From Adhaeribacter rhizoryzae (GTDB taxonomy: Bacteria > Bacteroidota > Bacteroidia > Cytophagales > Hymenobacteraceae), in NCBI RefSeq assembly GCF_008629685.1, contig NZ_VWSF01000008.1, positions 1-64,000 of the forward strand: a stretch of 64,000 nt of DNA. Direction: 5' to 3'. The translations under genes and the position numbers were made by a program. The notes under the pieces are model-generated. The model saw only the letters and a program-made list of their open reading frames with translations. It ran no database searches and was not told the origin of the DNA. Within the stretch, counting starts at the first letter, position 1. Each line of letters starts with the position of its first letter. Below, one piece after another: positions 13,467-19,787 of this stretch.

Positions 13467-14561
13467 TTAAGGAGCCGGCAGCTTCCGGGTCAGGTACAAA
13501 TAAGCACCCAGTAAATGATGCGTAAACGCGTTTTCGCTGGTGTTGGGGTAAATTTGGTAATAAGCCTCATCGGCGGGCAGTATAATAAAATTGCCGGCGC
13601 GCATATAGTTAGCCGATGGGAAGTAAGGAGGGGGTACAAATTCGGGCAGTTGTTTTTTTACAAATTTACCGGCCAGGGTGCCCAAATATTTCTGGTTTTT
13701 GCGCAAGGCCTTGCGGGTGGGTTTATCTAGTTGGTTAAAAGCATAACCCATGGCCAAATTCAGCGGAAACTTTTGCTTTTTAATTAGGCCGCGGGCATTT
13801 TTAAAAGGGTTTAGCGGGTTAAAATCATGAATGGTTTGGATGCTAACCGGCGTTTCGGGTACCCAATCGGCGGTATTTATTACGTTGCAGGCCCAGCCAT
13901 TGGCGGTAGCAGCTTCGTAATCGTAGGCAAAATACAGGTTACCAGGCTTTGGCGCGGCAATGCAATAAGTTTTAAACTGAATGTGTTGGGCTATCCGGCC
14001 TTCTTGCTGCAATTGCCGCAGGTAAGCCGTAAGTAAATACGCAATGGCGCCGCCCTGGCTATGCCCCACCACTATAAAGTTGCGGATACCCGTTCGGGAA
14101 CACGAATCTAATTTAGCCAGAATATCGCGCGAAAGCGCGGCCGTACCCAATAGCCAGCCCACGTGCACCGCTGCTTGCGGATTATTAGCCAGTTTATACT
14201 TAAAAGTAAAATCTTTAGATAAGGTAAGCTGTCCGGTGGCCGGTACCATGGCCGAGTAAAAATTTTCGAGCCAACTCTCCGAACTCCGGGTAGTACCCCG
14301 CACACTTATGGCCGCCACCGAATCTTTACTAATAGCCAAATCCCACCGGTTTAGTAAACCCATGATAGGCGAGCGGTACACAATTTTAAATTTTTCGGGT
14401 TTGGGAATATTTTTGTAATAAACCGTATCGGCGTGGCGTGCCGAGAGGTAAATCATTTCGAGAAATTCCTGCTTGTTAAAACCCGGTTTTAGCTTTTGCC
14501 CAAACAGGTTGGTTAACGAAGTAAAAAAGAAAAGTAAGCATAAAAAAAATACGCGATTCAT
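13467..14561 (-). CDS. Lipase, class 3-like alpha/beta hydrolase, exported
   Basis: A 364-residue protein with a signal peptide (MNRVFFLCLLFFFTSL, end near FGQ). The nucleophile elbow is VVGHSQGGA with the catalytic Ser at about 168. VAAISVRGTTRSSESWLENF near residue 85 supplies the oxyanion-hole region of class 3 (triacylglycerol) lipases, and INTADWVPETP is a likely acid-residue segment. Substrate range is not known. It is probably periplasmic or secreted. The start at 14561 is the only one that keeps the signal peptide. Confidence 0.75.
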   Translation of the reverse strand: MNRVFFLCLLFFFTSLTNLFGQKLKPGFNKQEFLEMIYLSARHADTVYYKNIPKPEKFKIVYRSPIMGLLNRWDLAISKDSVAAISVRGTTRSSESWLENFYSAMVPATGQLTLSKDFTFKYKLANNPQAAVHVGWLLGTAALSRDILAKLDSCSRTGIRNFIVVGHSQGGAIAYLLTAYLRQLQQEGRIAQHIQFKTYCIAAPKPGNLYFAYDYEAATANGWACNVINTADWVPETPVSIQTIHDFNPLNPFKNARGLIKKQKFPLNLAMGYAFNQLDKPTRKALRKNQKYLGTLAGKFVKKQLPEFVPPPYFPSANYMRAGNFIILPADEAYYQIYPNTSENAFTHHLLGAYLYLTRKLPAP

Positions 14562-16067: not shown

Positions 16068-19000
16068 TTAATTATCGAACCGGAAGCCAACACCAAACTG
16101 GAATAATATATTTTCTTCGCGCGAGTGCTGTAAGAGCGTTGAGAAAGTAAATCGTTCGGTGAATGGTGCAATATAAAAACCGCCGCCGTAGCCGCGGTGC
16201 CAGCCCCCAACTGCTTCGCCCTGATACCAAACCTTGCCCTGATCATAAAAAGTAAGGAGGCCATAGCGGAAAGGCAGAAATGAATTATTTACCTGCCCGA
16301 TATGGAAACGCAGTTCAGAGTTTAGGTAAGCACTAGCATCGCCGGAGAAGCGGTTTTGCACAAAGCCCCGCAAATTCTGGAGCAAGCCCAAAGTGGTATA
16401 TTTATAGAAAGGCAGGTTTTCGCCGTAGTTTTTGGCCCCACCCAACCGCAAAGCCAAGGTAATGGGCAAGCCCAACCGGGCAGTGGCGTAATAATCTAAA
16501 AAGCCCTGGCTAATACCAAAGTAATCTTTGGAATCTTGTAGCCGAAGGTATGTTTGGTGACTGGCATATAGCCGCAAGCCTTTTTGGGTAAATAATGGTT
16601 TATCGCGTAAATCTAAATTAAATACAGCACTGGCTCCGGCTAATTGCTGGTCGGCTAAATCGCCTTGCGGACCGGTATTTTCTTCTATAAAAGAGCCCGG
16701 CGTTATGCGCGAAGAAAAGGTTTCGTAGCGTGGGCCAATCCGGAAATAACTGCGGCGAAAAAACTGCCGTTGCAAATACACATGGCTAACCAAGCCGCTG
16801 AAGCGGGCTACGTAATAATTATCGTCGTATAAGTTTTCGTTTTTAGCGGTGTTGTTGCCCAGCCCGAAAAAGTTGTAGAACGGGAAGTTGCGGCCAATAT
16901 CCACGAAAGTACCAACATCCCAGTTGCCCAAAGCCTGGCGCCAGGTAAAATCGGTGGTAAGCTGCAAATTACCAAATTGCGTAGCCCTGAAGTTTACGCC
17001 GTATAAGCTGCCGTAATCGGGTTTCCGGAAACGCTGGCGCTTGTAATTAATGCCAAACGTTACGCCCAGGCCATCGCTTTTATTGTATAACAAACTGCCG
17101 CTGGGGTTGTAGGTGTTATACTCAAAAGCCTTTCGGTTATACTGATTTATGTTAGGTTTATCGGTGGTACGGTTACGGCTGGCCGGCCCTAAGGTTAATT
17201 TAGTGTCTGTGTTGTCGTAAATAAGGGTGTTTCCGCGCAAACTGCGGCGCACTTTAGAGGCATCCTGGATGCTATCGTTGCCGTAGCCCCCAATTACCCG
17301 CACCCGAATACTGGTGGGCACCTCGCCGCTAATATTTATTACATCTTTGCCGTCGAGGGCGTACAGGCGGATTTCTTTTGTTTCGTTTTTGTAAAAAGTG
17401 CGGTCGAAATAAGGCTTGCCTTCTTCCTGGTTGGTGGTTTTATCTTTTTCGAATACTTGCACCCGCACGCTGGCATTGGGCAAGCGTTCTACTTTAAAAT
17501 ATTCATTTTTGTTCGAGCCTACGATATCTACGTAGCGGGCCAATAATTTGTAATATGCTTCTAAGGCCTGTGGTAAACGCTCGCGGCGGGCTTTTAAGCG
17601 GTGGCCAATTTCCTGGCCATCAGTCGGAATAATTTCGGGAGGCAACTGCGCAATGGCTTCATGTATTACCTGGTCGGTCATTTTGGTTTGCAGGTAAGTC
17701 GCAAAATTCAGCCAGTCTTCCTTTTTTAAAGAGGTTAGTAATAACCGGTCGAGGTGGCGGGCTGTCCAGGTTAAGCTGGTAATGCCGCCTAATTTTTCGT
17801 CGAAATTCTGAATGCTGAGCGAAGCCCATTCCCGGTCGGCGAGCCAGAAAAATAAGCCTTCCCAGCGGCTAAAAGCCTGGTCGCGGTCGCGCGGAATAGG
17901 CCGGTAAAGTTTTTGTTTGCCATTTTGGTATTCGGCCCAGCGCCAATTATCGGCGTGCCGGTCAGTGTCGCCGATAAAAATATCGAAAGCGCGGGCTTTG
18001 CCGTAAGCCTGCACGTCTAAGCGGTTGTCGTGGTCCTGGAATAATTGCCGGAAGAAGCGGTAGCTTTTTTTAATATCGTCGGATTCGCCAAAGAAGGTCT
18101 TGCTATCTTCCGAGTCGCCGGGTCGTTCTTCCAAAAAGCCAATTAAATTTTTGTATTCGTCGCGTAACGGGCCCAAAGCCGGGTCATCGGCCAGTACGTA
18201 TAATTCGGGTCGGGCGTGTAAAATATCGGTGGCATCCAGGAGTTTGCTGGCAACCAGCGCTCCGTAAGGCTGGGTGGTGGGGTTTATTTCCTGCAATAAA
18301 TTGGTTACAGCGGTGTAGCGTAGTTCTGGGGGCACTACCCCAATGGGCTCTTTGGTAACCGAACGGAACACGTATTGCTTTTTGTTAGGTGCCTGCAACC
18401 GCAACGTTTTGGTTTGCAGGCCGCCGCCCGTCCGTAACAACGATAAATTTCGTGGATTTTGACCTAAATAAAAATAAGGCAACTTTACGGGTTGAGTCCA
18501 GCTTTTGCGGTAGATCTCGCCCAGAAAGAATTTTTTAAACCCAGAAGCTTTGTATTCCGGGCCGGGAACAACGGTAGCAAAATTATTTGGTTTAGGTGCC
18601 GGAATATTATGGTTTTCGGGATTAGTGCCCAACACGGAAAGGCAAGGGCCGAAAGACTGGTTAACGGGTGTTTGCTTATTTTGGGTTGGTGCGCAGGCCG
18701 AGGTAAATAATACTTTGGTGGCTAGTTCCTGCAAACCGTTTTTGGTAAAGGTGTAAAAAGTACTTGTTACTTTGCCGCTGCTATAATAAGTAAGTTTGCT
18801 GAAACCCGTTTTGGCTTCGTTTACCAGGCTCAAGGCATTTTTGCCTACAAAATCCTGCTGCACAAAACTACCCGAAACCAGATGGTAATTTTCTTCGGAA
18901 TAATTCAGGTGCAAATTATAATCGTGGGCAGCGGCGTATATTACGGGCGGATTTTCTTTTAACAAGCGCTCTAGCTTTTGTTTAAAGGCTTGGTAATCCG

Positions 19001-19787
19001 GATTAGCCATGTCGCGCGGGGTACCTACGTTTTGGCGGTAAGCGGCGTAAAAGCTACCTAATATTGGCAGCGGTACACGGTTGGCTGGGTTACGGTCGGC
19101 GAAGGGGAATAAGTGTTTCCGGAGCGGCATGCGCCCGCCGTACATGCCGTTCGAAATAATGGGGTGGTGGCCTACGAGTAAAATATTGCGGTTACCGGCT
19201 TCCGCAATAGCATCTTCCAGTTCTTCTAAAAAATCTTCGCGGGTGTTTATTTTACAATCGGTATCGGGTTCTATGGGCTTTTGGTGCGGGTGCATCCACC
19301 ATTGGGTATTCAGGGCAATAATGCGTAAGCCGGGGCCAATATCTATTATTTCGGGCCCGGGGCAGCCCTGGCGGGGCAGCAACACTTGTTTGCGGTTCAG
19401 GTTGCGGCTCAAATATTCTTCCAGGCGTTTTACATTGCTTAACCCATCGGGGCCCGAGTTATCCCAGTCTTTATCGCCGGGTACAAAGTACATGTTGCCC
19501 AATGGGTTGGTATTGGTAAGTTGCAGCAGCAAATCGAGTTTATCGGTAGTTAGTTTTTCTTTCTTACCTAAGCCTTGGTTAGCCGCAATGTCGCCGAGGT
19601 GTACCACCGTAAAAGAATTCTTTTGCTTGCTTAATTCCTGCTGAAAAGCAATCAGGTTAGCTTCCGGCACCGCTGCCGTAGCCGTGTTGCCAATTAAATA
19701 TACCTGGTGTAGTACAGAATCCGGCGTCTGCGCCCGGGTAGCGAAAGCCAACAGCCAAAAGTAAAGGAATAATAATTTTTTTTTCAT
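16068..19787 (-). CDS. Fusion: metallophosphoesterase-like / kinase-like / Omp85-type barrel
   Basis: A 1239-residue exported protein. I start it at ATG 19787, which begins a signal peptide (MKKKLLFLYFWLLAFATRAQ). Residues about 30-310 resemble a calcineurin-type phosphoesterase: VVHLGDIA, VPGDKDW, VGHHPI and AAAHDYNLH. The usual first DxH motif is not obvious and the GNHD box is GDKDW. Residues about 440-700 contain FIGDTDRHADNWRW (near 606) and PIPRDRDQAF (near 630), which look like the catalytic and metal-binding loops of HipA/CotH-type kinase folds. Residues about 840-1239 form a barrel typical of the Omp85/surface-antigen superfamily (FLPFRYGLLTFYDQGKVWY, ending FQFGVGFRFDN). The order implies an outer membrane anchor displaying two putative enzyme domains. 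The gene stands alone. Confidence 0.75.
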   Translation of the reverse strand: MKKKLLFLYFWLLAFATRAQTPDSVLHQVYLIGNTATAAVPEANLIAFQQELSKQKNSFTVVHLGDIAANQGLGKKEKLTTDKLDLLLQLTNTNPLGNMYFVPGDKDWDNSGPDGLSNVKRLEEYLSRNLNRKQVLLPRQGCPGPEIIDIGPGLRIIALNTQWWMHPHQKPIEPDTDCKINTREDFLEELEDAIAEAGNRNILLVGHHPIISNGMYGGRMPLRKHLFPFADRNPANRVPLPILGSFYAAYRQNVGTPRDMANPDYQAFKQKLERLLKENPPVIYAAAHDYNLHLNYSEENYHLVSGSFVQQDFVGKNALSLVNEAKTGFSKLTYYSSGKVTSTFYTFTKNGLQELATKVLFTSACAPTQNKQTPVNQSFGPCLSVLGTNPENHNIPAPKPNNFATVVPGPEYKASGFKKFFLGEIYRKSWTQPVKLPYFYLGQNPRNLSLLRTGGGLQTKTLRLQAPNKKQYVFRSVTKEPIGVVPPELRYTAVTNLLQEINPTTQPYGALVASKLLDATDILHARPELYVLADDPALGPLRDEYKNLIGFLEERPGDSEDSKTFFGESDDIKKSYRFFRQLFQDHDNRLDVQAYGKARAFDIFIGDTDRHADNWRWAEYQNGKQKLYRPIPRDRDQAFSRWEGLFFWLADREWASLSIQNFDEKLGGITSLTWTARHLDRLLLTSLKKEDWLNFATYLQTKMTDQVIHEAIAQLPPEIIPTDGQEIGHRLKARRERLPQALEAYYKLLARYVDIVGSNKNEYFKVERLPNASVRVQVFEKDKTTNQEEGKPYFDRTFYKNETKEIRLYALDGKDVINISGEVPTSIRVRVIGGYGNDSIQDASKVRRSLRGNTLIYDNTDTKLTLGPASRNRTTDKPNINQYNRKAFEYNTYNPSGSLLYNKSDGLGVTFGINYKRQRFRKPDYGSLYGVNFRATQFGNLQLTTDFTWRQALGNWDVGTFVDIGRNFPFYNFFGLGNNTAKNENLYDDNYYVARFSGLVSHVYLQRQFFRRSYFRIGPRYETFSSRITPGSFIEENTGPQGDLADQQLAGASAVFNLDLRDKPLFTQKGLRLYASHQTYLRLQDSKDYFGISQGFLDYYATARLGLPITLALRLGGAKNYGENLPFYKYTTLGLLQNLRGFVQNRFSGDASAYLNSELRFHIGQVNNSFLPFRYGLLTFYDQGKVWYQGEAVGGWHRGYGGGFYIAPFTERFTFSTLLQHSREENILFQFGVGFRFDN

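Follow-up and report, generated by a model that had tools for sequence, protein, structure and literature searches.

Heinz and Lithgow (2014) described a 'Metallo' subfamily of Omp85 outer membrane proteins in which a PF00149 domain is joined to an Omp85 barrel; in the accessible part of that paper, the PF00149 domain is termed a metalloprotease, families of this kind are reported as conserved at the genus level, and the word 'kinase' does not occur (PMC4104836). Here, we analysed a gene from Adhaeribacter rhizoryzae (phylum Bacteroidota), located in a stretch of 64,000 nucleotides (contig NZ_VWSF01000008.1, positions 1 to 64,000; hereafter the window), whose product of 1239 residues combines a front domain with the fold of a purple acid phosphatase (PAP), a kinase-like middle domain and an Omp85-type barrel. 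We infer that the family of the window protein falls within the 'Metallo' subfamily, with which it shares PF00149 and the barrel, although it differs from the subfamily as presented in that part of the paper by the kinase-like domain in between, by its phylum-wide spread and, in the window protein, by a degenerate phosphatase (PMC4104836). The phosphatase-Omp85 fusion has been known since 2014; what appears to be new is the kinase-like part, for which Pfam has no name. In the open-access literature, as distinct from subscription papers and preprints, we found no kinase-like domain described on an Omp85 protein, and a Legionella-based survey of the bacterial kinome treats FAM20/CotH-like groups and, in its accessible part, holds no description of this domain (PMC9758233). 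The patatin-Omp85 protein PlpD also has a catalytic domain ahead of an Omp85 barrel, but the enzyme is a different one, and the PlpD superfamily has a POTRA domain, whereas a sequence search gave no POTRA match in the window protein at E <= 10 (PMC11116518).

We tentatively read the window protein, with a probability of about 0.45, as an enzyme with a kinase fold that faces the periplasm, is regulated by a pseudophosphatase domain, is anchored through its Omp85 barrel and takes part in polyphosphate- or phosphate-linked envelope biology. The barrel would be the outer-membrane anchor, with the N-terminal domains most likely directed toward the periplasm; the kinase-like domain of the window clade, in which all candidate catalytic residues are kept, would probably phosphorylate an envelope protein or lipid; and the front PAP fold would act as a non-catalytic binding or regulatory module. 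The neighbouring ppk1, ppx, sixA, HD-PycTM and SdiA-regulated genes would place the family in polyphosphate- or phosphate-linked envelope metabolism or signalling. The original prediction of a three-part protein (phosphoesterase-like, kinase-like and Omp85-type) is borne out by fold and family matches, and its two motifs, GDTDRHADNWRW and PIPRDRDQAF, lie at residues 606-617 and 630-639. A profile of the kinase-like domain matched 114 of 296 Bacteroidota genomes, and 44 of 59 near relatives matched in a whole-protein search. The PAP, kinase-like and barrel domains occur together in classes A, B (which includes the window protein) and C; further architectures are a kinase-like domain with a barrel and no PAP, stand-alone kinase-like proteins and stand-alone PAP proteins. 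The window protein is under strong purifying selection across its domains (dN/dS 0.03-0.06 per domain against the nearest orthologue, L008, and 0.05-0.11 against L009).

The case for a kinase-like core comes from its predicted structure. An AlphaFold2 model of residues 400-890, built on 64 of 73 alignment rows after an 88 % redundancy cut, reached a pLDDT of 91.5 and a pTM of 0.92 and has a kinase-like N-lobe and C-lobe between residues ~435 and 750. In VIA-align comparisons, where Z values differing by 1 or less were treated as ties, it matched CotH (Z 15.4, 253 residues, root-mean-square deviation 4.0), phosphatidylinositol 4-kinase type II (PI4KII; Z 14-15), CtkA (13-14), HipA (11-12) and PI3K-type kinases (11-12). 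PI4KII, CtkA, HipA and CotH also headed a Foldseek search with the middle domain (E 6e-6 to 1e-3); DrFam20C1 stood at rank 46 (E 2.2e-3), and no Fam20C family appeared in the family-profile search. Profile-profile alignment placed GDTDRHADNW on the GNxDxY loop of CotH and the GNxDDHxxN loop of HipA, and PRDRDQAF on the DxDxxF motif of CotH, with scores of 30.2 (CotH) and 28.4 (HipA_C) against maxima of 23.9 and 23.2 among 100 column-shuffled profiles per family. The two-lobed kinase fold, the catalytic Asp and the metal-binding Asp after the catalytic loop are thus all present in the window domain. Across the family, the near-fixation of R599, D602, D607, E553, K479 and W615 (145-148 of 148 rows) also favours this reading. 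Its kinase core, which had been predicted, stands on this clear fold match and on the CotH/HipA register, but no hidden Markov model match rose above its cut-off: the window protein had no match to CotH (PF08757), whose best matches among family members had E 0.015 and E 0.058 (13.3 bits, gathering cut-off 23.8), and HipA_C (PF07804) scored 12.5 bits against a gathering cut-off of 30.5 (E 0.11). Identity to CotH is ~15 %, the Gly-rich loop here reads GGGxQT, and CotH has neither phosphatase nor barrel. HipA and CtkA are soluble kinases, and we know of none joined to a barrel; PI4KII, a eukaryotic lipid kinase, shares the fold and gave no sequence match. By register, D609 would correspond to D228 of CotH and D634/D636 to D251, and CotH variants altered at D228 or D251 are termed inactive in the accessible part of the report on them (PMC7821199).

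The front domain (residues 22-408; AlphaFold2 pLDDT 90.0) was modelled on a 47-row alignment, consisting of 45 of 53 rows after the same redundancy cut and two stand-alone phosphatases. It closely matches mammalian PAP, or TRAP (pig enzyme, 1ute; Z 28.3, 269 residues, root-mean-square deviation 2.9). At the seven positions that we take to be the dimetal ligands of TRAP, the window protein retains D66, H207 and H288, and N34, A69, D105 and Y290 stand where the other four should be, so that it has the fold of TRAP-like purple acid phosphatases and lacks their full ligand set, in agreement with an earlier description as phosphoesterase-like with partly altered metal motifs. All but one of the 27 class A rows retain the full set of seven ligands; exactly three, and the same three, remain in every one of the 21 class B rows, and none to two in five class C rows. 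The class A phosphatase appears intact, and the class B front domain is, to judge from its lost ligands, probably a fixed, degenerate pseudophosphatase. This undercuts the idea that a single chain carries two active enzymes of opposite types, since the phosphatase of the window protein is probably inactive. The domain is nevertheless maintained, because its dN/dS values are 0.062 (nearest orthologue) and 0.110 (next nearest). Plasmodium GAP50 (Z 26.3), a PAP-like membrane anchor, shares the fold and is an analogue of the anchor role rather than a proven pseudoenzyme, because phosphatase activity has been reported for it (PMC8949495, accessible part).

The gene context of the family points to polyphosphate. 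In 61 of 62 genomes, we found 107 ppk1 genes (PF02503), at least 51 of which have a barrel-bearing family gene at a distance of 15 kb or less; these are spread over at least 39 of the 61 genomes. Two ppk1 genes each adjoin a family gene in at least 12 genomes, and outside the taxonomic family of the window organism proximity was seen in at least 6 of 25 genomes. The 15-kb counts are lower bounds, drawn from the barrel-bearing places among those listed and with one genome (G007) scored as 'not near' without a ppk1 search, and they are not independent, the genomes being related; for a single ppk1 gene, the chance of such proximity is roughly 1-3 %, taking about one to five family genes and 34 kb for each in a genome of 4.5-5 Mb. 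Downstream of class B genes, Ppx-GppA (PF02541) and Ppk1 were encoded in 7 of 12 wide loci, which are all seven of those outside Adhaeribacter. We sampled 20 loci with barrel-bearing genes, either class A-type or PAP-less; an HD-PycTM gene was present in 16, a gene for an SdiA-regulated protein in 8, one for a GAF protein in 7, ppk1 in 5 and a His_Phos (SixA-like) gene in 3. PycTM occurred in 19 of the 20 sampled genomes, mostly as a single copy, and at <= ~10.5 kb from a family gene in 18 of these 19; in the remaining one it was on a different contig. This linkage of a Pycsar-effector-like gene (L216-L235) extends over many Bacteroidota families and has no obvious defence setting, and in several families an ~800-residue GAF-domain protein adjoins the HD-PycTM gene (L227, L228, L229, L222, L230). 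A link to a Pycsar-like cyclase was considered and found weak, with PF00211 near a family gene in just 5 of 20 loci, as read from positions.

Several observations weigh against our reading. The whole window protein has no Pfam match even at E 10, Foldseek gave low TM-scores (0.15-0.34, normalised by query length), and the hhalign probability of the CotH and HipA_C alignments is just 6-7 %. The periplasm is not expected to contain ATP. In Adhaeribacter, neither Ppx-GppA nor Ppk1 was encoded downstream of class B genes at any of the five loci (that of the window and L243, L244, L245 and L253), and because of this the polyphosphate link is drawn at the level of the family and for the window gene itself is merely presumed. 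The candidate catalytic residues are also unevenly conserved. Among 148 of 156 kinase-domain matches, kept because they cover the catalytic sites (the window protein excluded, and the gene of genome G005 counted twice, as L027 and L167), residue 609 is Asp in 118, Gly in 19, Ser in 7 and Asn in 4, and at position 614, which corresponds to the Mg-binding Asn, 121 rows have Gln and 25 have Asn. D609 is missing in 18 of 21 class B rows, and the three rows that retain it all belong to the window clade. Conservation of the DRH motif had been named as a check on the prediction, and here the kinase core held while the DRH Asp proved common and not universal; that DRH is universal is ruled out by the 118 of 148 rows.

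These losses favour a different explanation, which we consider unlikely, that the domain is a pseudokinase throughout, serving as a ligand- or protein-binding module of an outer-membrane scaffold or receptor, with DRH in the window clade incidental or a reversion. The domain can persist without D609, since this residue is lost in 18 of the 21 class B and 30 of the 148 family rows, and the front phosphatase is degenerate as well. Residue 609 varies while others are nearly fixed: D602 (148 of 148), R599 and W615 (147 each), D607, E553 and W617 (146 each), K479 (145) and D634, D636 and R475 (141 each), so that D607, two residues before D609, is held more tightly than D609 itself. Against a pseudokinase stand the majority of family rows, in which D609 is retained, and the window clade, which holds K479, D609, N614, D634 and D636 together under purifying selection (dN/dS 0.055-0.078). 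This clade nests within class B (support 99) and parsimony requires two changes at D609, a history that would fit either one loss and a regain or two losses. Stand-alone kinase-like proteins with Ser at 609 adjoin a DRH stand-alone in seven of seven cases (L045/L044, L051, L052, L077, L078, L079, L201), which suggests that the DRH partner is the active one. Among the PAP-less barrel members, a strongly diverged branch (L192, L194, L196, L197) carries Asn in place of D609, differs in the DRD motif as well and is probably a pseudokinase. One class B orthologue from an Adhaeribacter species (L027, G005:C1:3740948-3744654) is broken into two open reading frames (ORFs) of 812 and 386 residues, which may reflect decay or a sequencing error.

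Still less probable, in our judgement, is that the PI4KII-like and PAP domains handle phosphorylated outer-membrane lipids, in the manner presumed for PlpD and phospholipids (PMC11116518). PI4KII and CotH are tied in Z, a PAP2 gene lies near one locus, and a DAGK-type lipid kinase and APP1 share a stretch with stand-alone members in Adhaeribacter; however, the latter context comes from one genus, the barrel-bearing genes adjoin ppk1, ppx and sixA rather than lipid genes, and CotH and HipA, which are equal or near-equal fold matches, act on proteins. The Adhaeribacter stretch in question (L211, L213) is conserved and has stand-alone PAP-type phosphatase and kinase-like genes together with the DAGK-type kinase, the APP1 phosphatidate phosphatase, and transglycosylase-like and M48 protease-like ORFs. 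We regard as very unlikely a more specific proposal in which the kinase would be independent of ATP and polyphosphate from the adjoining Ppk1 would serve as donor for the phosphorylation of proteins or lipids of the envelope; the PAP domain would reverse the transfer (class A) or sense polyphosphate or phosphate (class B). Under that proposal, the window clade could descend from pseudokinases and have regained its catalytic Asp.

The anchoring assumed in our preferred reading, that of a periplasm-facing enzyme with a pseudophosphatase regulator, follows from the C-terminal barrel. NCBIfam Omp85_fam covers residues 1057-1235 (E 3.2e-15, under the curated cut-off of 200 bits), and the relatives L042 and L028 exceed the PF01103 cut-off. 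All 58 aligned rows have the R and G of the LRG(Y/F) motif, the (V/L)RG(Y/F) signature of Omp85/TpsB proteins. POTRA domains are not universal in Omp85 proteins, some of which have no N-terminal extension (PMC4104836, accessible part). The patatin domain of PlpD, earlier thought to be exported, stays in the periplasm, and loss of PlpD alters lipids (PMC11116518, accessible part). Since the N-terminal domains of Omp85 proteins are expected to face the periplasm, as is the case for PlpD, those of the window protein are by analogy likelier to be periplasmic than surface-exposed, and its earlier designation as a surface protein is not upheld. A lipobox pattern occurs in 15 of the 26 rows of class A and 7 of the 16 stand-alone rows, and in none of the 21 of class B. 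Export of the N-terminal domains by the barrel itself, so that they act on external substrates at the cell surface, was the former model for PlpD and is very unlikely here: PlpD itself is periplasmic (PMC11116518), and the class A lipobox would tether the N-terminus to a membrane. In the linker ahead of the barrel, the GGxGxD motif matched HemolysinCabind weakly in four of the 64 members, with E 0.29 at best.

The features of the gene are collected in Table 1. The ATG start gives 1239 residues with a signal-peptide-like beginning, and an alternative in-frame GTG farther upstream would give 1261. The nearest proteins include one in A. aerolatus that is 95 % identical, and a scan of genome contigs with the window protein as single query returned four near relatives. 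A PDB sequence search with the window protein found nothing useful (best profile match CtkA, E 0.47), an IMG/VR scan found no relative of it, and scans for sigma-70 promoters and terminators gave signals no stronger than chance. The adjacent ORF (window 13467-14561, minus strand) encodes a class 3 lipase (PF01764) with no sign of belonging with the gene.

Table 1. Features of the window protein and its gene (positions in the window; aa, residues)
Feature	Position	Strand	Basis
Whole gene, 1239 aa, class B of the family	16068..19787	minus	ORF call and orthologues
Signal peptide-like N-terminus, aa 1-20, without lipobox	19728..19787	minus	Sequence and pattern scan
Purple-acid-phosphatase-fold domain, aa ~25-380, degenerate metal site	18648..19715	minus	AlphaFold2, fold match, ligand count
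Kinase-like domain (CotH/PI4KII/HipA-type), aa ~435-750	17538..18485	minus	AlphaFold2, fold match, profile-profile register
Gly-rich loop GGGLQT, aa 454-459	18411..18428	minus	Alignment, model
RSVTK, aa 475-479, candidate nucleotide-binding residues (putative role)	18351..18365	minus	Conservation
GDTDRHADNWRW, aa 606-617; D609 in register with the CotH/HipA catalytic Asp	17937..17972	minus	Profile-profile alignment
PIPRDRDQAF, aa 630-639; D634/D636 in register with CotH DxDxxF	17871..17900	minus	Profile-profile alignment
Beta-rich linker domain with RTX-like GGxGxD motif, aa ~752-872	17172..17534	minus	Modelled strands; weak HemolysinCabind
Omp85-type beta-barrel, aa ~880-1239	16071..17150	minus	NCBIfam Omp85_fam; Pfam matches of relatives
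LRGF, aa 1139-1142, Omp85/TpsB (V/L)RG(Y/F) signature	16362..16373	minus	Alignment

The finding bears on the question of how proteins of the cell envelope might receive phosphate in a compartment that presumably lacks ATP. Because this phylum-wide family of the outer membrane combines kinase and phosphatase folds and its genes are linked to those of polyphosphate enzymes, the question becomes testable in laboratory Bacteroidota. Classes A, B and C present a graded loss of phosphatase ligands in a protein that is under purifying selection in the clade of the window, and the neighbouring DRH and Asp-less stand-alone proteins look like enzyme-pseudoenzyme partners.

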